Under the pieces are notes generated by a model that worked only from the letters and a program-made list of their open reading frames with translations, was not told the DNA's origin and searched no databases. Both the position numbers and the translations under genes were made by a program. Below are positions 1,957-18,426 of a DNA stretch of 20,003 nt, piece by piece. Position 1 is the stretch's first letter; every line of letters begins with the position of its first letter. The DNA lies in IMG/VR virus record IMGVR_UViG_3300034418_002841, positions 1-20,003 of that record. One strand, given 5' to 3'. The DNA is from a virus.

Positions 1957-2205
1957 GTGAAGAAAATCAGAAAACATATTCCGGGTAAAAGAAAACGAGA
2001 AAAGAAGGAAGCAAATGAAAGGCTTGAAAAGCAAGCTGCTGCTTTCCTTGATCATCCCAAAGAATGTTGCGTTTGTAAAACTGAGTTTGAAAGAACGCAC
2101 GAGACAGTCAAAACTTGGCAAGTATCCGTAGTAGAAGATAGGGTGCGCTTGACTTGTCCCGATTGCTGGGGTAAAATAAACGAAGTATTGGAGAACATAG
2201 AATGA
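1957..2205 (+). CDS. Small zinc-ribbon protein, 82 aa (GTG start)
   Basis: It starts at GTG 1957, about 11 nt after GAGG and just after the previous stop. The first 30 residues are very basic (KKIRKHIPGKRKREKK), then comes a helix. The C-terminal half holds CCxC at 37-40 and CPDC at 67-70, a four-cysteine zinc ribbon. The basic tail plus zinc ribbon suggests nucleic-acid binding, but that is inference. It ends ENIE in a degenerate copy (14 of 16 bases) of the upstream cassette, overlapping the IMPDH/GMPR gene by 4 nt. Similar short zinc-ribbon proteins are common in marine phages. Confidence 0.75.
   Translation: MKKIRKHIPGKRKREKKEANERLEKQAAAFLDHPKECCVCKTEFERTHETVKTWQVSVVEDRVRLTCPDCWGKINEVLENIE
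2149..2177 (+). promoter_or_regulatory. Candidate sigma70 promoter upstream of the IMPDH/GMPR gene
   Basis: TTGACT (2149-2154), a 17-nt spacer and TAAAAT (2172-2177) lie inside the end of the zinc-ribbon gene. The predicted start of transcription, near 2184, would leave a short leader containing GGAG at 2190 before ATG 2202. Hexamer quality and position are good, but the site is inside coding DNA, so chance cannot be excluded. Confidence 0.4.
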
Positions 2206-3215
2206 GAGAAGGTTTAGCTTATAACGATGTATTGCTTGTCCCGCAGTATTCGGATATTGAGTCAAGAAAAGAAGTTAGTCTAAACTCTAAACTTGGGTTT
2301 ATTGATTGTGATCTGCCCATCATAGCGTCTCCAATGGACACGGTTTCAGAGGTGGCTATGGCGAAAGCAATGGACGCAAAAGGCGCCATTGCGATTATTC
2401 ACAGATACAATGATGTTGAAGATCAAGCAAGAATGGTTGCGGAGGCTAGTGATGGAAACTCATTGGTTGGCGCAGCAGTCGGAACATCTGGCGACTTTCT
2501 TGAAAGAGCATATGCTTGTTACGAAGCCGGCGCAGATGTAATCTGTGTTGATGTAGCGCACGGTCATCATTCTCTAATGAAGCAGGCTCTAAAACTGCTA
2601 AGGCAGATGGTTAGCGATGATGTTCACATAATGGCTGGAAATGTCGCAACCTTTGAGGGCTATGAGGATTTGGCTTCTTGGGGTGCGGACAGTGTCCGCT
2701 GTAACATTGGAGGCGGTTCAATCTGCTCTACACGCATTCAAACAGGACACGGTGTCCCTGGACTACAAACAATATTCGATTGTAGTAGATCTCATTTCGC
2801 CGGAACTGTTCCTATCATTGCTGACGGAGGCATTCGCAACTCCGGTGATATTGTAAAGGCTCTTGCTGCCGGCGCTGACTTTGTAATGTTGGGTTCTTTG
2901 CTCGCGGGAACAACAGAAGCCCCGGGCGATGTTTTAGTTGGCCGCGACGGAAGCAAACAAAAGGCTTACAGAGGAATGGCTTCAAAGGACGCTCAAATGT
3001 CTTGGAGAGGCAAGACCGCATCTTTGGAAGGTATCGCTACAACTATTCCGTATAAGGGAACAGTAGTGGATATTCTAGATGATCTAGAAAGAGGTATTCG
3101 TTCTGGACTATCCTACTCAGGAGCGCGAACCATTACAGAACTACAATCAAAGGCTCGATTTATCCGCCAGACTGCGAGCGGACAAACCGAAAGTGGGACA
3201 CACATCCTAAGATGA
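2202..3215 (+). CDS. IMP dehydrogenase / GMP reductase family enzyme, CBS-less
   Basis: This is a TIM-barrel oxidoreductase that interconverts IMP with XMP (IMPDH) or GMP with IMP (GMPR). Visible motifs are ASPMDTV at 42-48, VDVAHGHH around 116-123, AGNVAT at 145-150, the catalytic loop GGGSICSTR with Cys175, IIADGGIR at 205-212, GADFVMLG at 224-231, YRGMAS at 256-261 and [11 protein letters not shown] at 276-286. At 337 residues it lacks the two CBS domains of bacterial IMPDH; residues ~77-88 form a short linker where they would sit. The N-terminal half reads like IMPDH. The flap after YRGMAS lacks the Arg-Tyr pair used by IMPDH, which favours GMP reductase or an unusual IMPDH. The direction is undecided. 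The gene overlaps both neighbours by 4 nt. Confidence 0.93.
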
Positions 3216-4931: not shown

Positions 4932-5582
4932 ATGGTTATTTTCAACAACGACACTCAGACCGAGGAGGAACAGGAAGAGATCAGCGATCATCAGGCTGCT
5001 ATGGTTATGGCGGCAATCGCTGGCGCCCAGGAAGGTCCTGAACCAAACACTCTTGGTTTGGTCGGGGACCTAAACGAAGAATCAGCCCAGGAGATCTATC
5101 ACGGTCTTATGCAGTTAAATGGAGGCAAGGTGTTTCCAAACCCTGTTGGGGAAGGAGAAGAAAGACCAGAGGACGTTCATTTTCTTATTTCAACTGGCGG
5201 TGGTGCTGTTTACGATATGTTCGGTATCATTGATATTATGGACATTGTAAAGAGACGTCGTGATATCGCAACACTAGGCACTGGCAAGGTCTTCTCGGCA
5301 GGAGTTCCTTTATTGGCTTCTGGAACAAAGGGTAAGCGTTTCGTGACGCGCAATGCTCGCATTATGATGCATCGTTGCTCCGCAGGCAATATGGGCTCTA
5401 CTGCTGATATTAAGGTAACTCATGATGAAATGCGAGTAATGGAGGATCAGATGGTTCAGGTTATCGCTGAGAACTCAAAGTTATCTGTGGGTGAGATCCA
5501 CAACATGTTCTCAAAGAACACAGATGAATATTTCTCTGCGCAGGAAGCAATTGAAATGGGTCTTGCTGACGAAATCATCTAA
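4932..5582 (+). CDS. clpP: ClpP-family serine protease
   Basis: This is an S14-type peptidase of 216 residues. After an acidic ~35-residue N-terminal extension come GLVGDLNEESAQEI, the oxyanion region STGGGAVYDMFGI at 87-99, Ser122 in GKVFSAGVPLLASGTKGKR, His147 in IMMHR and Asp198 in NTDEYFSAQEAIEMGLADEI. The Ser-His-Asp triad is therefore intact. ClpP normally forms a barrel fed by a Clp ATPase; none is seen here. In some phages ClpP-like enzymes act as head-maturation proteases, while other phages carry ClpP as an accessory host-like gene. Proximity to virion-type genes with (L/I)xE sites makes maturation possible but unproven. The SD AGGA lies 6 nt before the ATG, overlapping the upstream stop. 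Confidence 0.92.
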   Translation: MVIFNNDTQTEEEQEEISDHQAAMVMAAIAGAQEGPEPNTLGLVGDLNEESAQEIYHGLMQLNGGKVFPNPVGEGEERPEDVHFLISTGGGAVYDMFGIIDIMDIVKRRRDIATLGTGKVFSAGVPLLASGTKGKRFVTRNARIMMHRCSAGNMGSTADIKVTHDEMRVMEDQMVQVIAENSKLSVGEIHNMFSKNTDEYFSAQEAIEMGLADEII

Positions 5583-5608
5583 TTAGTATTAGTTCCCGAG
5601 GATTTACA

Positions 5609-7288
5609 ATGAATATTGATACACTAGTGGAGAGTTTCTACTCCAAAAAAGATGAGACCGAAAGCATCATCAATGAGGTTTTGAGTATCTTGGTGGGTAA
5701 AGTACAAGCTGAAGCCCTAATCAGAGAACAAAGAGAGCCAATCACTTTAAGCTTTGACGGTGTGCCTGATATTCCAATCTCGGAAATTCCCTGGTCTTCT
5801 GTTAAAACAGTTGAGGGCGGCGCAGAGATCCCAAGCCCGCAGAGAAAGCAACTTGAGCAGTTCTTGGATGACATCGCGGGAGATGATCTAAAAGATAAAG
5901 TTGAGGGTCTAGCAAAATTCTACGAGACAGATCCAGTACAACTTCTTGAGCAGGGCTTCTTTGGCGACTCTAATAAAGAGCGTATTTCAAAAGCTTTAGG
6001 TTATCTAACTTTTTATAAGACCCTAACAAAGATTATTGCTCACTTTAACGCTTCATCGGCTGGTTTCTCTTTTGAAGCTTTCTTGGGAGTCTTGCTCGGA
6101 GGCAAACAGGTTCCGACTGGTGAGGGAACGATTGCTGACTTGGTAACTGGAGATGGAACTCCGGTCAGTCTTAAACTTTATACCGAAGGATCTTTGAAGG
6201 TCGGAGGTAGTTTTACCGATTTGGTAAACGATCTTCGTAAGTTTGAGAAGATGCAGTATGTCGCTGTGACGAAGACTTTGAATGACGAGAATACAGCTGG
6301 ACGATTGGATTTTTATCGATTTGATTTTACTCTAGACAACGTTGCCAACATAATGCTTAATGGTGGACTAGAAAACCCGGAGCTTATGAAGCTGCCCACA
6401 GGGTTTGTAGAAAACCCGTCCGGATTTGAAGATATTGAAATTCCACCGCCTCCAAAGGTGGAAGAGTTGGTAAAAATCTACGAAGATAGAGTCGTAGAGA
6501 GAGGCCAGGGTAAATACCCAGAGGATATTCTAGAATCTGTGATCCAGCTTGTTAACCTTCCTGAAGGTACAGCGTACCTTACGGGCTCTCCCGCCAAGTT
6601 TGGACACCCCAAGAGTAGGCTAAAGAAGATGAGTCCTACTGGTAAAGTCGCCGCCCGATTTGCGGTTACACTAGGGTTATTGGAGGATGAGGTTCCGCCC
6701 AAGGTGCGTGCCGATGGAAGAGAGGCGGTTGAAAACTACAAGAAACAGCTGAATCTGGTTTCGGATATTTATAACGATGTTTTGGTCCCGGCTTATGCTG
6801 AGGTGGTTGCCGCAGCAGGTCGCTCTATCAAGGCTCGCCAAGAATTAATCGCGCGCGCCGGCGGTGATTATCTTGATTATGAACGCTCTGTCGAGGTCTA
6901 TAACCAGTTACCCTCACCCACCCTTAAGAAGAAGGCTTTGCTTCTTAGCCACGGCTATGTCAACACAGACCAGTTTGAATTAACACAGCCTCGCGTTCTA
7001 AACATCGATAGACTAGCGGATCCTTATGAGGTATTCCCACCGGGACAGGATGAAGTAAAACTAGGCTCTATTGAAGTAGGTCAAGAACAGGTTGTCAATC
7101 TTATGCAGAAGATCTCCGAAATTATCGACGCATCAGTCTTTGCAATTTTTGAGGATCTAAAGGTTCTAACTACAAACATTCAAAGCTACTTTGGTAATGG
7201 ACTGCAGAACGATAAAGAAGCTCAAACAGCAATTGAAGCATCCAAGTCTATTGGGGAACGCACCAAAGAACTACAAAGCGAAAAATAA
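5609..7288 (+). CDS. Large phage protein of unknown function, 559 aa, with a possible PD-(D/E)xK-like core
   Basis: The start ATG follows CGAGGATTTACA. No firm family is recognised. The segment at about 152-205 stands out. It reads SAGFSFEAFLGVLLGG, then GTIADLV, then GTPVSLKLY and GSLKVGGSFTDLVNDL. The Glu, the Asp and the S-L-K spaced after them resemble a PD-(D/E)xK nuclease core with Ser in place of the acidic residue before Lys. This is a weak reading. A proline-rich linker (IPPPPK) near 283 separates an N-terminal domain from a long, mostly helical C-terminal half with a likely coiled coil near the end. The N-terminus carries LVES and IINE, fitting (L/I)xE. It sits between clpP and groEL, so a virion or assembly role is plausible. 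Confidence 0.8.
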   Translation: MNIDTLVESFYSKKDETESIINEVLSILVGKVQAEALIREQREPITLSFDGVPDIPISEIPWSSVKTVEGGAEIPSPQRKQLEQFLDDIAGDDLKDKVEGLAKFYETDPVQLLEQGFFGDSNKERISKALGYLTFYKTLTKIIAHFNASSAGFSFEAFLGVLLGGKQVPTGEGTIADLVTGDGTPVSLKLYTEGSLKVGGSFTDLVNDLRKFEKMQYVAVTKTLNDENTAGRLDFYRFDFTLDNVANIMLNGGLENPELMKLPTGFVENPSGFEDIEIPPPPKVEELVKIYEDRVVERGQGKYPEDILESVIQLVNLPEGTAYLTGSPAKFGHPKSRLKKMSPTGKVAARFAVTLGLLEDEVPPKVRADGREAVENYKKQLNLVSDIYNDVLVPAYAEVVAAAGRSIKARQELIARAGGDYLDYERSVEVYNQLPSPTLKKKALLLSHGYVNTDQFELTQPRVLNIDRLADPYEVFPPGQDEVKLGSIEVGQEQVVNLMQKISEIIDASVFAIFEDLKVLTTNIQSYFGNGLQNDKEAQTAIEASKSIGERTKELQSEK

Positions 7289-7291
7289 TAC

Positions 7292-7319
7292 TTGACACAC
7301 ACAAATGGTATGCTATAAT
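7292..7319 (+). promoter_or_regulatory. Strong sigma70 promoter with extended -10, upstream of groEL
   Basis: Both hexamers are consensus: TTGACA (7292-7297) and TATAAT (7314-7319), separated by 16 nt, with TGC directly before the -10. The predicted start near 7326 gives a leader of about 20 nt that contains the SD GAGAGG before ATG 7346. It lies in the 57-nt gap between genes. Confidence 0.9.
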
Positions 7320-7345
7320 ACCAAGATAGAAAGAGAGGTTTCTCA

Positions 7346-8926
7346 ATGCCCAAGTGTGTATTTGAAGACCGACAGAGCCTCAACCAAAAGGTTCTGGACG
7401 GTGTTAATAAGCTTGCCGACAATGTTGCGGCAACTTTAGGACCGAAGGGTCGCAATGTTATCCTACATCAAAAAGGAAAAGATCCTATCATCACAAAGGA
7501 CGGCGTAACTGTTTCTGCGTTTGTTCATTTGGACGATGAGTTTGAAAACGCTGCCGCACAGATTTTAAAGCAGGCAACCTCCCAGACCAACACTATGGCT
7601 GGTGACGGAACCACAACGGCAACTGTGCTTTCTCGTGCTATTCTTAACAAGGCACAGCGATACATTACTGCCGGCGCTTCTCCTGTTGAATTGAAGCGAG
7701 GCATTGATTTGGCTGTGGATGCCCTAGTCCGAGAGTTACAAAAGAACGCACAACACATCGAAACTCTTGATGATGTAGAGAATATCGCAACCATTTCAGC
7801 TAACAACGATAGAACAATCGGCAAGTTGATTGCGACTGCTGTTGACAAGGCTGGCAAGGATGGCTCCATTACAATTGAGGATGCAAAGTCAGTTGAGACT
7901 TCCTTGGATGTTATTGAAGGTTTCCGAGTAGAAGCTGGATATGCTGCGTCTGCTTTTGTAACTGATGAGCGACGTGGTGCTGTCCATTATGATTCCCCGC
8001 TTCTTCTTGTTACAGACAATCGGATTGATTCAGTAGATCAAATCCTTCCAGCGTTGGAGATTATATCTCGCGATGGTCGTCCGCTTGTTATTGTTGCCGA
8101 AGAGATTGAAGGTCAGGCTCTTGCAGCTTTGATTATGAATACAGTTCGCGGTTCAATGAAGATTGCTGCTGTAAAGGCTCCCTTCTACGGCGAGAGGCGC
8201 CGGAACATTCTATCCGACCTAGCACTCTCAACAGGTGCTGAGTTCATCTCTACGGACGGCACAGTGCGTCTAAAGGATATCAAGCTACAACACTTTGGTC
8301 AGTGCCGATCAGTTGATATCACAAAGATCGGAACAACTGTTATTGGCGGCAAGGGAGACTTTGAGGAGATTGATCGTCGCATTGAACTTCTTAAGACTGA
8401 GCTTCTACAAACAGATGATATGCGCGAGTGCGATAAGATTCAAGAACGAATTACAAAGTTGGCTTCTGGAGTTGCGGTTATCAAGGTTGGTGCGGCAACA
8501 GAAGTAGAAATGATTGAGAAGAAGCATCGTATTGAGGATGCGCTAGAAGCAGTCAAGTCGGCACAGCAAGAAGGCATTGTTCCTGGCGGTGGAGTTGCCC
8601 TAGTTCGTGTATCAAACAATCTTCTGGATATAATGCTTGAAGCCGAGAACGAAGATCAAATGTTTGGTATTGAAATCGTCCGCGATGCTGTAAAGGCTCC
8701 GCTGCGTCAGATGGCTCAGAACTGTGGGTTGTCCCCTGACTTGGTGCTAGCGAAGGTAGAGGATGCCGAAGGCAATCTAGGTTACAACTTCCGAACAGAC
8801 GAAATGGTCGATATGTTAGAGGAAGGTGTTATTGATCCGGTCAAGGTTACGAGAACTGCCCTTCAAAATGCTGCTTCTGCTGCTGGAACATTAATCACAA
8901 CTTCTCATGCTATTGTGGAGGTATAA
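7346..8926 (+). CDS. groEL: GroEL-type (group I) chaperonin
   Basis: The protein has 526 residues and runs co-linear with E. coli GroEL through the ATP site: LGPKGRNV at 31-38, DGVTV at 52-56, GDGTTTAT at 86-93 with Asp87, and HRIEDAL with Asp398, then VPGGG at 412-416. ATPase residues are present, so it should be an active folding chaperone. In the apical domain the GYLSPYF segment of E. coli is GYAASAF here (199-204), so Tyr203 is replaced by Ala, while Leu234, Leu237, Leu259 and hydrophobic residues at 263/264 remain. The flexible GGM tail is missing; the protein ends right after the equatorial domain. No groES is visible nearby. It has its own near-consensus promoter. Phage chaperonins of this type presumably fold capsid or other phage proteins. 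Confidence 0.96.
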   Translation: MPKCVFEDRQSLNQKVLDGVNKLADNVAATLGPKGRNVILHQKGKDPIITKDGVTVSAFVHLDDEFENAAAQILKQATSQTNTMAGDGTTTATVLSRAILNKAQRYITAGASPVELKRGIDLAVDALVRELQKNAQHIETLDDVENIATISANNDRTIGKLIATAVDKAGKDGSITIEDAKSVETSLDVIEGFRVEAGYAASAFVTDERRGAVHYDSPLLLVTDNRIDSVDQILPALEIISRDGRPLVIVAEEIEGQALAALIMNTVRGSMKIAAVKAPFYGERRRNILSDLALSTGAEFISTDGTVRLKDIKLQHFGQCRSVDITKIGTTVIGGKGDFEEIDRRIELLKTELLQTDDMRECDKIQERITKLASGVAVIKVGAATEVEMIEKKHRIEDALEAVKSAQQEGIVPGGGVALVRVSNNLLDIMLEAENEDQMFGIEIVRDAVKAPLRQMAQNCGLSPDLVLAKVEDAEGNLGYNFRTDEMVDMLEEGVIDPVKVTRTALQNAASAAGTLITTSHAIVEV

Positions 8927-10213: not shown

Positions 10214-10219
10214 TAGTTG

Positions 10220-12034
10220 ATGTATTTACGTCAAACTAATAATTGGAAAGAGTTTCTGCTTCAAGAGGCAATCGAACAAACCGGTTTGCCTCTTGAAGTA
10301 GTTGCTATGATCCGAGATCTCAGCAACGAGTTAGGTTCGGTTCCAGAAAAGGTTTTAACTTCACTTGGAACTATGGCTCGTAGTTACTCGTATGCTACGC
10401 CTCTTATCATTGATTGGATGAACCCGTCAGATGATGACAATAAATTTAGAAGTAACCCCGCAATATCAGATTTACAAGCTATTCTTTATGATCGCAGGAA
10501 GCCTCGTTCTGAAAGGACCGCCGAGGATGAAGCTCTTCGTAAGGAAATGGATAGAGACTTTATTCATCCTTTGGTAGCAGGAACCACAGGAGACAACCCG
10601 GATAATCCCCGGCTTGTAAACATTTTAGATACAAATCGTTATAGAAAGAGATACGTCAAGAAACTTAAAAAAGCGGGACTAACAGAAAAAGCAGAAGCAT
10701 CAGATAAGGTTTTTGTTGATGCTATGGTTAAGTGGGCAGAAAAATTTGTAATGCCTTATATGGAGCCCATTATAAAGGCTGTTGTAGAGGATCCGGATGA
10801 TTATCAATCAATATTAAAGTTTGTGAGTCGCATTTCCGATAAAAGGAAGCTGATCGCCGCAGCTGCAAAGGCTAAAAGACTATTAGAAAGAGAACCAGAA
10901 GATCCGCAGAACGTAGTTCATAAGTTTAATAATGGTTATTACTGGTATGATATCAAGTCTGATGCTTGTACTCTTGAAGGACAAAAGATGGGTCACTGTG
11001 GTAAAGGAATAGCTGGCGGCAACCTTTACTCTTTGCGTTCTCCATCGGGAACTAAAAAAGATCCCGATCCTCACGTTACAATAGAAATGACTGCGCCCGG
11101 TGTCATCTATCAAATCAAAGGCAAAGAAAACGACGCGCCTGTAAAGAAATACTGGCCTTATATTTCTTGGTTCATAAAGAATATTAAATCAACAGAGGGT
11201 AAGCCAGTTACAGGTTATATGGAAGAGAAAACCGGTCCCGGCTTTAGTGAGATGTATGATTACTTACAAGAACAAAATCCGGATGTGCTTAAGGAGGATT
11301 TTGCTGAGTTCGCAGATAGATACAAGGAAGGCCTCGCAGATTATGCGGAAGCCTTATTCGCCAACTTTGATATACTTGCAGGCTCACCGTCGCCCTACGA
11401 TACAATAAGGTCTCAAAATATAACCTTTAAGCATACCCCACGCGCAGTTGACTCCGACACCCCCAGTCTAACATTTTTTATCAGTTACAAACTCAAATAC
11501 AAAGCGAAGTTGCCGGATTACTTTAATTTACGCAACATCTCTTCTCGCGCTCGCGCAAAAAGGGGTGAGGAGTTAGACAAAATTCAAGATCATATTAAAA
11601 ATGAAATATTCCCAAAGTATTTTTCTAGCGGAACATCCGACACACTTCCAGAGCCCAGTCGTCCCAAGGCTGAACAAGGCGAAGGCTCTCTAAGTAATAT
11701 TTACGATTTACGTTATGATTTGAAATGGAAATGGGACGTGCGCGCACCAGACAAAAAGAAACTTAGAGAAGCCGTAAAAGAAGTAAAGAATGTTCTTAAA
11801 TATTTGGTTGGTGTTGACGCTGATGTGATGACTGTCGGTGGACTTGACCCCGAACAACTGCGAACCCTTCAGAAAGCATTTGATAAAGAAGGCGGCCAAG
11901 GTAAGATGGATATTACGGGCTTTGAAATGGAAGTAGAGAAGTATTTCGATAGTCTAGGGTTTCAGCCTTCTGATGACGAAGAGATGCTACAAGAAAGTAT
12001 CACATTTGATCGTTGGGCAAAAATAATAAAATAA
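10220..12034 (+). CDS. PcfJ-like domain protein, 604 aa, with prohead-type terminal tags
   Basis: ATG 10220 is preferred to TTG 10217. The N-terminus is a short helix, LRQTNNWKEFLLQEAIEQTG, with LQE followed by Ala as a possible prohead-protease site. The C-terminus carries MLQESITFDRWAKIIK. Residues ~240-320 match the PcfJ-like core: YYWYDIKSDACTLEG, MGHCGKG with Cys260, LYSLRSP at 269-275, HVTIEM at 285-290 and QIKGKENDAP at 298-307. PcfJ is named from an enterococcal conjugative plasmid; its biochemical role is unknown, and related domains occur in phages. The C-terminal half is charged and unrecognised. There is no clear SD, and CTATTTA lies 6 nt upstream. It is probably a virion-associated or internal protein. 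Confidence 0.82.
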   Translation: MYLRQTNNWKEFLLQEAIEQTGLPLEVVAMIRDLSNELGSVPEKVLTSLGTMARSYSYATPLIIDWMNPSDDDNKFRSNPAISDLQAILYDRRKPRSERTAEDEALRKEMDRDFIHPLVAGTTGDNPDNPRLVNILDTNRYRKRYVKKLKKAGLTEKAEASDKVFVDAMVKWAEKFVMPYMEPIIKAVVEDPDDYQSILKFVSRISDKRKLIAAAAKAKRLLEREPEDPQNVVHKFNNGYYWYDIKSDACTLEGQKMGHCGKGIAGGNLYSLRSPSGTKKDPDPHVTIEMTAPGVIYQIKGKENDAPVKKYWPYISWFIKNIKSTEGKPVTGYMEEKTGPGFSEMYDYLQEQNPDVLKEDFAEFADRYKEGLADYAEALFANFDILAGSPSPYDTIRSQNITFKHTPRAVDSDTPSLTFFISYKLKYKAKLPDYFNLRNISSRARAKRGEELDKIQDHIKNEIFPKYFSSGTSDTLPEPSRPKAEQGEGSLSNIYDLRYDLKWKWDVRAPDKKKLREAVKEVKNVLKYLVGVDADVMTVGGLDPEQLRTLQKAFDKEGGQGKMDITGFEMEVEKYFDSLGFQPSDDEEMLQESITFDRWAKIIK

Positions 12035-12194
12035 TTTTTCTCTAATGGTAACAAGCCTCATAGTTACTAATGGACATGAACGGGTTAGAAAGGGCTCAGG
12101 TTGTATGCAAAATTTAGCATCCCGTAAGGAGTTTGCAGGTAAATATACGGTGAGGTGATAGTGATAAAGTAACCTATTGCACGGAGGGTTTTTC
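12035..12194 (+). other. 160-bp intergenic region before the lipoprotein gene
   Basis: This is the longest gap in the window. It contains a direct repeat CTAATGG (12042-12048 and 12067-12073), a short inverted repeat GTAAC/GTTAC (12048-12052 with 12063-12067) and a possible weak hairpin CCGTA/TACGG (12122-12126 with 12146-12150). Two tiny frames of 15 and 17 codons are not convincing. I see no clear promoter or terminator. It may be a structured leader for the next gene. Confidence 0.35.
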
Positions 12195-13031
12195 GTGTCT
12201 GGGTGGATTAAAAACTTTATAATAGTAGCTTCTTTACTTTTGGTAAGTTGTACCGGACCGGTCTTACCAGAATCTAACTCTAATCTAAGTCCGGATTTCA
12301 TTCAAACACAACGCACAGTTGAAGTTCGAGACTCTCTCGGAGCAGTCTTGGAAGTCATTGATGCGATTAATTTTACATTAACAGAGAAAAGAACCAGACA
12401 GGCTGCTGTCAAGGTGCGTTCACTTTTATATGGCGGTCACGGCTCTGGCACTTACATGGTGGCCTATGGCCGTCGAGTTGTCGCAACGGCTGCTCACGTC
12501 GTCCGGAACGAGAGCACTATGCTTATAGAAGGTCGCGACGGTGAGGTGGTCATAGGCAAGGTTGTTTTTGTGGATCACAAAGTTGATCTTGCTTTTTTGG
12601 TTGTCCCTGAGATTGAAACCAGAACAGCCATCCGTTACAGACCAGAATCAAAGTATGACGAGAGACTAGTTGGCAAAAGTCTAACTTATACTGGCTTTCC
12701 TTCACACCACGATCTTCTTACAATTCATGGTTACATCGCGGCCTTAGAAAGAAATATGATTGTTTCCAATATGTTCGGGTGGTTCGGGTCGTCTGGTTCC
12801 GGCGTCTTTGACGATCAAGGAAGATATGTTGGCTGTGTATCTGGACTAGATGTTGGCCGATTTGGTCAGGGAGTTAGAATTCCGCTAGAGGACATTGTTT
12901 GGGTCGCGCCAATCAGCCAAATTGATCAGGAGCTTTTAAAAGCAAGAATCACAACATCTGATGTGCCAGAGAAGGAAATGAAGTCTATTCCTGGCGCAGC
13001 TGCTCCGAGAAGAGGCGGGTTGAGGGACTAA
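12195..13031 (+). CDS. Secreted lipoprotein with trypsin-like serine protease domain (GTG start)
   Basis: GTG 12195 has GGAGG at 12183-12187, spacing 7. The N-terminus is a lipoprotein signal: a Lys at 6, a hydrophobic core (FIIVASLLLVSC) and lipobox L-V-S-Cys19. The mature part contains a chymotrypsin/HtrA-type fold: GSGTYMV at 83-89, His101 in ATAAHVV, Asp131 in KVDLAFL and Ser202 in GSSGSGVF, then YVGCVSGLD. The nucleophile loop is GSSGSG rather than GDSGGP, as in some HtrA-like enzymes. All three catalytic residues are present. The product should be lipidated and face the periplasm or cell surface. Its target is unknown; superinfection exclusion, lysis or envelope remodelling are guesses. 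It sits among virion-type genes. Confidence 0.88.
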   Translation: MSGWIKNFIIVASLLLVSCTGPVLPESNSNLSPDFIQTQRTVEVRDSLGAVLEVIDAINFTLTEKRTRQAAVKVRSLLYGGHGSGTYMVAYGRRVVATAAHVVRNESTMLIEGRDGEVVIGKVVFVDHKVDLAFLVVPEIETRTAIRYRPESKYDERLVGKSLTYTGFPSHHDLLTIHGYIAALERNMIVSNMFGWFGSSGSGVFDDQGRYVGCVSGLDVGRFGQGVRIPLEDIVWVAPISQIDQELLKARITTSDVPEKEMKSIPGAAAPRRGGLRD

Positions 13032-13061
13032 GAAAATGCGTAATCTCCTTCTCTTGCAGAG

Positions 13062-13090
13062 TTGATTTATAATCGCAAGTCTGGCATAAT
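13062..13090 (+). promoter_or_regulatory. Candidate sigma70 promoter with extended -10
   Basis: TTGATT (13062-13067), a 17-nt spacer and CATAAT (13085-13090), with TGG directly before the -10. It lies in the 79-nt gap after the lipoprotein gene. The predicted start near 13097 leaves CAGGAG as SD before ATG 13111. Confidence 0.5.
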
Positions 13091-13110
13091 TACTAGACAG
13101 GAGTTAATCA

Positions 13111-13377
13111 ATGTTATCTTTAATACAGAGAATACTCCGAGCGGCAACATCATTCGATACCGTGCTTAGTCGCTTGGATAGAATTGAAAGCGCGATAAAT
13201 AAAATCGAGACAAAGATCAAAAAGTTTGATAAGATTGCTGATGAGAACGATGCTCTTTGGCAAATGCTCGATGAGCAAAGAGAAATGGAACAGATCTTTG
13301 TGAAGAATACAGAAGATTACAATAAAGAGATCGCAGAGATTCTTTTGAGGAACGCGAAAGTCCAGGGCGATGCCTGA
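13111..13377 (+). CDS. Small coiled-coil protein, 88 aa
   Basis: CAGGAG precedes the ATG at good spacing. Nearly the whole protein looks like one long helix with heptad spacing (LSRLDRIESAINKIETKIKK, then DENDALWQMLDEQREMEQ), without a membrane segment. Such proteins often oligomerise as structural or adaptor pieces, but no family is recognised. Its last 8 nt overlap the phosphomannomutase-like gene, suggesting coupled translation from the promoter at 13062. Confidence 0.75.
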   Translation: MLSLIQRILRAATSFDTVLSRLDRIESAINKIETKIKKFDKIADENDALWQMLDEQREMEQIFVKNTEDYNKEIAEILLRNAKVQGDA

Positions 13378-14107
13378 TAGAGTATATCTTTTTGACGTTG
13401 ACGGAACGTTAACCGAACCGAGAGAGAAGATTAAAGAACAGATAGAGGATGTATTCATGAGTTGGATTGCATCTAAGAACAAGAGTGTGTATCTTGTTAC
13501 GGGTTCCGATATCAGCAAAACCAAAGAGCAGCTTGGCGAGGATCTGATGGATGCTTGTCTTGGTGTTTTTACTTGCTCCGGTAATGTATTCAGGCAGGAA
13601 GACCAGATTATTTACAGTAACGTTTTCGATCCTGGCGATGAGTTTATTGCGGATCTGGAACTTTATTTGGAAAACTCTCAATGGCGTTCTAAGAAAGGCA
13701 ACCATATCGAAAAGCGTCCGGGAATGTTAAACTTCTCTACTGTTGGAAGAAACGCAAATCAAAATATGCGCAAGGCTTACGCACGTTGGGATAAGACTTC
13801 TCTTGAACGAGAGGATATTGTAGCTTATATAAACGACCTGTACCCCGACCTAGAGGTTTCCATTGGCGGGTCTATCTCTGTAGACATTTATCCTAAAGGA
13901 AAGAACAAAGGTCAGGTGGTTGAGAAGTTGAGAGAGCTTCACGGTGATGATGTTGAAATGATTTTTGTTGGAGACAAGAATATCCCCGGCGGAAATGATT
14001 GGTCTCTCGCACAACGTTTGGAAACTATTGAGGGTTCTCAATGGTATCAAGTTTTATGTCCAGAAGAAACACGCTGCCTTATTGAGTATGGGGAACTATT
14101 TATATAG
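13370..14107 (+). CDS. Eukaryotic-type phosphomannomutase-like HAD-family enzyme
   Basis: This 245-residue HAD-superfamily protein has the block order of eukaryotic PMM: DVDGTLT with Asp9 and Asp11, VTGSDxxKxxEQLG around 43-56, RPGMLNFSTVGRNA at 116-129, GGSISVDIYPKG at 166-177 and GDKNIPGGND at 201-210. PMM interconverts mannose-6-phosphate and mannose-1-phosphate, feeding GDP-mannose. The length matches PMM2-type enzymes (about 250). With the mannose-isomerase-type cupin at 9799 it suggests sugar-phosphate chemistry, for glycosylation of phage or host surface or for scavenging; the substrate is not proven. It overlaps the coiled-coil gene by 8 nt and ends one base before the next ATG, with CTATTTA inside its last codons. 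Confidence 0.87.
   Translation: MPDRVYLFDVDGTLTEPREKIKEQIEDVFMSWIASKNKSVYLVTGSDISKTKEQLGEDLMDACLGVFTCSGNVFRQEDQIIYSNVFDPGDEFIADLELYLENSQWRSKKGNHIEKRPGMLNFSTVGRNANQNMRKAYARWDKTSLEREDIVAYINDLYPDLEVSIGGSISVDIYPKGKNKGQVVEKLRELHGDDVEMIFVGDKNIPGGNDWSLAQRLETIEGSQWYQVLCPEETRCLIEYGELFI
14096..14102 (+). promoter_or_regulatory. CTATTTA motif, copy 4
   Basis: AACTATTTATATAG lies in the last codons of the phosphomannomutase-like gene, 5 nt before ATG 14108. It has nearly the same placement as copy 3. No SD is found at normal spacing; GGGGA lies 13 nt upstream of the ATG. Confidence 0.5.
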
Positions 14108-17860: not shown

Positions 17861-18205
17861 TTGAGAGATTTAATTTACGGCTTCCTACTTTTCTTTGTAG
17901 GGCAAGTGCTGATATGGTTTCAAACCAATGCTCAGTTTCTAAATGAATGGGCAAAGGAGCATCCCTTTTTAATGTCTTGTATATTCAGCATTCCAATATC
18001 TTATATGTTTATCAAAGCAACCGGGCTCGTTGTAAGCCACTTTGATGGTTTGCTTTGGCCTGGACGTTTTATTGGCTTCGCATCCGGCGTTGTTAGTTTT
18101 GCGTTCCTATCTTATTTCTTTATGGGCGAGGGTATTACAGCCAAAACAGGCTTGAGTTTGCTTCTCGCAGTTATTATTGTTTGTATTCAGGTGTTTTGGA
18201 AATGA
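17861..18205 (+). CDS. Polytopic membrane protein, about four TM helices, 114 aa (TTG start)
   Basis: TTG 17861 follows AAGGAG at good spacing and comes one base after the previous stop, so I accept the rare start. Hydrophobic helices lie at about 4-20 (LIYGFLLFFVGQVLIWF), 36-54 (FLMSCIFSIPISYMFIKAT), 68-88 (GRFIGFASGVVSFAFLSYFF) and 95-112 (TGLSLLLAVIIVCIQVF). The segment WFQTNAQFLNEWAKEHPFLM between the first two recalls a family of small membrane proteins I associate with marine T4-like phages, of unknown role. It overlaps the lipoprotein gene by 4 nt. Confidence 0.8.
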   Translation: MRDLIYGFLLFFVGQVLIWFQTNAQFLNEWAKEHPFLMSCIFSIPISYMFIKATGLVVSHFDGLLWPGRFIGFASGVVSFAFLSYFFMGEGITAKTGLSLLLAVIIVCIQVFWK

Positions 18206-18426
18206 AGAAGATTATTATTATTTGTGCCGTGCTAATGACTGGTTGCGCACATACACGTATGCCTCTTTTGAACGGTCGCTGCCCAAGCGACTTCCCTATC
18301 AAGGGAAATGCTGAATCAAGGTTATATCATACTCCGGGTGGTGAGTATTATCATTTAACTGTACCGGAAGTTTGCTTTGCATCAGAGGATGTTGCTCGCC
18401 AGCGAGGCTTTGGTAAATCCAGATAA
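18202..18426 (+). CDS. Small lipoprotein with a 'sunset'-like module, 74 aa
   Basis: ATG 18202 in the ATGA overlap gives a clean signal peptide: KK, a hydrophobic core IIIICAVLM and a lipobox ending T-G-Cys15. Minus-3 is Met instead of the usual Leu. The mature part contains CPSDFPIKGNAESRLYHTPG, YYHLTVPEVCF and EDVARQRGFG. This closely follows a ~40-residue module (IKGN..S..YH.P....Y..T..E.CF.....A...G) seen in other bacterial secreted or ribosome-linked proteins and sometimes called the sunset domain. The product should sit on a membrane outside the cytoplasm. Its role is unknown; a Rz1-type spanin is unlikely because it is not proline-rich. Confidence 0.78.
   Translation: MKKIIIICAVLMTGCAHTRMPLLNGRCPSDFPIKGNAESRLYHTPGGEYYHLTVPEVCFASEDVARQRGFGKSR

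Follow-up and report, generated by a model that had tools for sequence, protein, structure and literature searches.

The gene pair described here, a phage lipoprotein serine protease with an adjacent vWA lipoprotein, is a new candidate for phage remodelling of the host surface. We analysed a window of 20,003 bases, an IMG/VR virus record, in which the protease gene stands alone; its conserved vWA lipoprotein neighbour, a new finding that the original prediction had missed, has been lost from the window by deletion. Our preferred reading, a serious possibility short of probable, is a two-part envelope protease whose vWA lipoprotein would capture a ligand at the surface for the protease to cut, serving host-surface remodelling or superinfection exclusion.

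The protease gene and its catalytic triad

The lipoprotein serine protease gene (12195..13031, + strand) was identified from its open reading frame, domain and homologues. The reading frame proposed earlier was borne out, with a GTG start following a Shine-Dalgarno GGAGGG (12183..12188, +, read from the sequence) and a product of 278 amino acids. A CACGGAGG-like sequence also lies upstream in most close relatives, and the untranslated leader 5' of the gene (12035-12194) includes a TAGTGATAAAGTAACCTA...CACGGAGG arrangement that recurs in them. A 37-amino-acid reading frame upstream of the protease was dropped as it is open in the window and the relatives L015 and L017 only. The signal peptide and lipobox occupy 12195..12251 (+), where a hydrophobic stretch precedes a standard LVSC lipobox at residues 16-19 (Cys19 codon, 12249-12251). 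The product thus has the signal peptide and lipobox Cys of a putative bacterial lipoprotein, as originally proposed; a lipoprotein-type Cys occurs in 21 of the 26 homologues and is absent in five.

The predicted trypsin-type domain (12441..12833, +, residues 83-213) matches Pfam Trypsin_2 far above chance (E 1e-14, 55.9 bits against a 27.6-bit cut-off), and with this domain above its curated cut-off and a His-Asp-Ser triad the product is placed among trypsin-like (PA clan, Trypsin_2) proteases. It also matches PHROG 9683 'protease' (E 1.2e-11), and its best sequence-profile match is Jep (E 2.5e-10), which reads GQSGS. An AlphaFold2 model built from 26 sequences (mean pLDDT 77.5) is confident over a core spanning about residues 62-254, encoded on the + strand, and has a disordered linker behind the lipobox. 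This core is predicted to adopt an HtrA-like protease fold, its best solved-structure match by Foldseek being DegS without its PDZ domain (E 1.5e-11, target TM 0.76). A Pfam scan found no PDZ domain in the 278-residue protease, which has about 25 residues beyond the last predicted helix, and the curated HtrA-family cut-offs of NCBIfam are missed (best MarP, 31 bits against 250; Do family, 24.6 against 416). Because the PDZ domain is absent and these cut-offs are missed, we filed the protease as HtrA/V8-like, not as HtrA. PADLOC matches to LmuA and RT-Protease_XI are weak and domain-level, and were set aside as indications of defence-system membership.

Since DegS is the best fold match, the protease might act in regulation as DegS does, cleaving an anti-sigma factor of the host and so switching on the host envelope stress response. 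The enzyme is without PDZ, the domain that gates DegS, and no anti-sigma factor link was seen; of all the readings weighed here, we give this one the lowest probability.

The trypsin-like triad claimed for this protein stood in part. His101 (codon 12495..12497, + strand, in TAAHVV) and Asp131 (12585..12587, +, in VDLAF), located by sequence and homologue alignment, were upheld, whereas the proposed Ser202 gives way to Ser200 (12792..12794, +), placed by homologue and HMM alignment. Both serines lie in the motif GSSGSG (residues 198-203). His101, Asp131 and Ser200 are invariant across all 26 distinct viral homologues, so that the triad is intact, and in the HMM alignment Ser200, within G-x-S-G, falls on the catalytic serine of DegP (GNSGG) and the serine of Jep (GQSGS). 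One homologue, L028, reads GASGAG and thus has Ala at 202, while Ser stands at 200 in every one. Because of this invariance, the alignment to the DegP and Jep serines and the Ala at 202 in L028, we assign the nucleophile to Ser200 in place of Ser202. The frameshifted form against which the relatives were checked occurs in none of the 26, and a dN/dS of 0.10-0.16 among close relatives shows purifying selection on the protease.

A pattern scan with the window protein alone reached one locus with a near-identical protein (95% identity); the wider homologue set was reached via neighbour genes, then alignment, with the addition of vWA loci that also carry the protease. All 26 distinct protease sequences gathered in this way lie on viral contigs. 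On the longest contig among the relatives (194 kb) we found genes for a major head protein of T4 type, a baseplate wedge protein, DNA polymerase, NrdA, a DnaB-type helicase and PhoH, and gene content of this kind suggests that the protease carriers are large T4-type phages, so far from environmental sequence only. The phage origin proposed for the gene agrees with both the IMG/VR virus record and relatives on T4-type contigs of up to 194 kb. At E 0.01 the window protease has no match in 50,697 phage records, and a distant member of the family has weak matches there, in genes whose annotation is DegS or protease. Among 84,980 prokaryote genomes, two pattern scans, which reach fairly close relatives only, returned no relatives of the protease.

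A vWA lipoprotein gene beside the protease gene

A vWA lipoprotein gene adjoins the protease gene in 21 of the 26 homologues. The gap between the two is mostly -11 to 4 nt, and the protease is usually the first of the pair, with the order reversed in L049. The partners are about 310-370 amino acids long and have a predicted vWA/integrin I domain fold. The MIDAS motif DxSxS and its distal Asp are present in 18 of 18 partners and all 17 aligned partners have the lipobox Cys, so that the partner combines the MIDAS-adhesin features of (predicted) vWA fold, DxSxS with distal Asp, and lipobox. In the models, the lipobox is followed by a small beta domain formed from both ends of the protein, into which the vWA domain is inserted. 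Matches to the Bdellovibrio MIDAS adhesin family are weak (E 2.6e-7 to 6e-4), the curated NF052240 cut-off is missed (30 of 700 bits), and a match to myxobacterial CglD is weaker still. These similarities hint at that part of the bacterial tree as the host and are too weak to assign one. Many of the vWA lipoproteins (L016, L018 and other vWA loci) end in GDDDDSA repeats, possibly a host-lineage mark.

The partner family was not found in the 50,697 phage records, and neither gene was found in eight other large phage records, a set containing no positive control and selected for sharing a nucleotidyltransferase domain or, for one record, a portion of the window's 605-amino-acid protein. Our literature search found no phage vWA lipoprotein/protease pair. 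A module kept across many large environmental phages and not found in the sequenced-phage collection therefore constitutes a concrete, testable gene pair.

The pair is kept in L031 and L049 although the remaining neighbours differ there, evidence in favour of the two genes being functionally linked. The distances of the protease also correlate with those of the vWA protein (Mantel r 0.73), a correlated divergence that could be expected from shared descent alone. Neither partner is strictly required, since L032, L034 and L035, three distinct homologues with plain signal peptides, have no adjoining vWA gene (the 69-kb record behind L034 has none at all), and two virus records carry a vWA gene (L052:9893-10798 and L053:9833-10798) and no protease homologue.

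In the two-part reading, the protease would be an exported, lipid-anchored, PDZ-less HtrA/V8-type serine protease with the triad His101-Asp131-Ser200, and in its usual form the first gene product of a two-gene module whose second is a MIDAS vWA lipoprotein. During infection of a diderm host, both proteins would reside in its envelope. Through its metal site the vWA protein may bind a surface ligand and deliver it to the protease, and so select the substrate as PDZ domains do in HtrA; the protease would then cleave its target, either a protein of the host surface or one belonging to an incoming phage, leaving the infected-cell surface remodelled or superinfection excluded. We infer export and lipid anchoring from the lipobox, proteolysis from the intact and conserved triad, and substrate capture from the conserved MIDAS and the pairing of the genes; the weakest step of the mechanism is its purpose, whether surface remodelling or the exclusion of superinfection. 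That a MIDAS adhesin lipoprotein captures substrates in place of PDZ for an HtrA-like lipoprotein protease, and that the protease strips or disables host surface receptors after infection, seems to us doubtful.

The envelope location and protease activity expected from the sequence would also suit a role in lysis or release, with the protease weakening the envelope from its periplasmic face. On the 194-kb contig, however, the protease module lies at 182-184 kb, far from the single endolysin-like gene found (about 108-110 kb), and the vWA partner is not a lysis protein. We consider such a role very unlikely; binding at the surface would suit the partner better than lysis would.

Genes neighbouring the pair include groEL, HAD and nucleotidyltransferase genes, and no MoxR gene was recognised in the part of the neighbouring reading frames that was scanned. 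The window carries a proteostasis gene cluster with ClpP-like and GroEL genes (4932-8926). In some relatives an hsp20 gene lies near the protease, on its upstream side; that of L006 (L006:6751-7182) occupies the place of the window's 605-amino-acid reading frame (10217-12034). A second small lipoprotein with an MTGC lipobox is encoded at 18205-18426 (reading frame listed from 18181); it ends in a sunset domain (NF051437, E 6e-17) and is kept in most close relatives. The window phage also carries genes for a phosphomannomutase-like HAD protein (13370-14107) and an IMP dehydrogenase/GMP reductase homologue (2202-3215).

The main rival to surface remodelling is periplasmic quality control, in which a DegS/DegP-like enzyme supplied by the phage would clear misfolded envelope proteins in the course of infection, as the counterpart in that compartment of phage GroEL, ClpP and Hsp20. 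The HtrA-like fold agrees with it, as does the setting of the gene, a few kilobases from clpP and groEL in the window and with hsp20 close upstream in some relatives, which counts against the two-part model. Quality control nevertheless leaves the conserved vWA lipoprotein unexplained, the protease has no PDZ domain, and the pair is kept in L031 and L049, where groEL is absent from the stretch read. We regard this role as unlikely.

Loss of the partner from the window

On the 3' side of the protease stop codon stands ATGCGTAATCTCCTTCTCTTGC, which matches the opening of the L017 vWA gene letter for letter. This stub of the deleted gene (ATGCGTAATCTCCTTCTCTTGC..., 13036..13065, +) encodes MRNLLLLQS, nine codons, and then a stop. 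The deletion junction lies at 13057..13058: its left side corresponds to the vWA gene start in L017 and its right side, AGAGTTGATTTATAATCGCAAG..., to the 3' part of a small gene that in relatives such as L016 lies downstream of the vWA gene. A 3' remnant of that small gene, beheaded by the same deletion, remains at 13058..13116 (+, ELIYNRKSGIITRQELINVI). Relative to L017 and L016, the deletion removed about 1.1-1.2 kb, and contig 17971_000545 (L006/L015) has the same junction. The window protease, now without its partner, would be either active on its own or in the process of being lost. Its persistence is a point against the two-part model, and the natural deletion in this lineage provides a built-in comparison.

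Low silent divergence and a tract of identity amid diverged genes show that the protease cassette lacking the partner has recently passed from one of these phage lineages to another. Silent divergence between the two partner-less contigs is 0.025 for the protease and 0.17 to 1.8 for their other genes; the window and L006 share 96-100% nucleotide identity over most of 12001-13200 (87% at 12801-12900), and identity drops outside this tract. The two proteases differ by 17 nonsynonymous and 5 synonymous changes, compared with about 50:97 against the partner-bearing L016 (Fisher p 2.5e-4), a comparison of 22 differences in one pair of young alleles with visible recombination. Relaxed constraint once the partner was gone could produce this nonsynonymous excess, as could diversifying selection, or recombination together with small numbers, and we treat it as a lead only.

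Relaxed constraint bears on the most direct alternative use of the pair, in which the protease is a sheddase whose chief substrate is its own operon partner, so that the vWA adhesin is released from the cell surface. The adjacent, near-coupled genes agree with such an arrangement, and the 17:5 ratio in the partner-less lineage is as it would be under relaxed constraint, within the limits of that small and recombining sample. The triad has nevertheless stayed intact in this lineage and homologues without a vWA gene exist, which leaves shedding, in our estimate, distinctly improbable.

Comparison with known systems

The phage protease shares with the HtrA family (DegS, DegP, DegQ) a trypsin-type domain, the His-Asp-Ser triad, predicted export to the envelope and the fold match to DegS-deltaPDZ. 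It differs in its low identity (about 20-22%), in being PDZ-less, in reading GxSGS instead of GNSGG, and in its predicted lipid anchor, where HtrA proteins have a transmembrane anchor or are soluble. The V8/Spl-like staphylococcal proteases (Jep, SplE and the glutamyl endopeptidases) likewise have no PDZ domain, and Jep is the best profile match; these enzymes are secreted proteins of Gram-positive bacteria, not lipoproteins, and, to our knowledge, have no vWA partner. HtrA-/trypsin-like proteins of tailed phages (Rhizobium phage AF3, Podoviridae sp. ct9P15, uncultured Caudovirales; PHROG 9683) have the same fold and are remote from the window protease, with fold-level matches at about 15-24% identity. 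We know of no lipid anchor or vWA partner among them.

Genes for vWA proteins and trypsin-like peptidases co-occur in VMAP/ternary conflict systems, where the vWA protein has been proposed as the peptide-capture part (PMC7159879). Those systems are defined by a MoxR ATPase, whereas the phage pair consists of predicted exported lipoproteins with no MoxR recognised alongside in the neighbouring reading frames scanned. The partner itself resembles the Bdellovibrio MIDAS adhesins (Bd0875, NF052240) in its lipobox and in the predicted beta-rich domain from both termini with an inserted MIDAS vWA (PMC11003981); unlike them, it is phage-encoded and protease-paired, and it scores 30 of 700 bits against their family. 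By its proposed role, the pair may be likened to Llp (T5) and Cor (T1, phi80), phage lipoproteins that act at the outer membrane of the infected cell in superinfection exclusion, in the case of T5 Llp by binding (PMC9586334). Llp and Cor are small and non-enzymatic, and Llp jams its receptor without cutting. Compared with such small binders, a phage-encoded protease at the cell surface, paired with an adhesin-like protein, would be an additional, enzymatic route to altering the surface of the infected cell.
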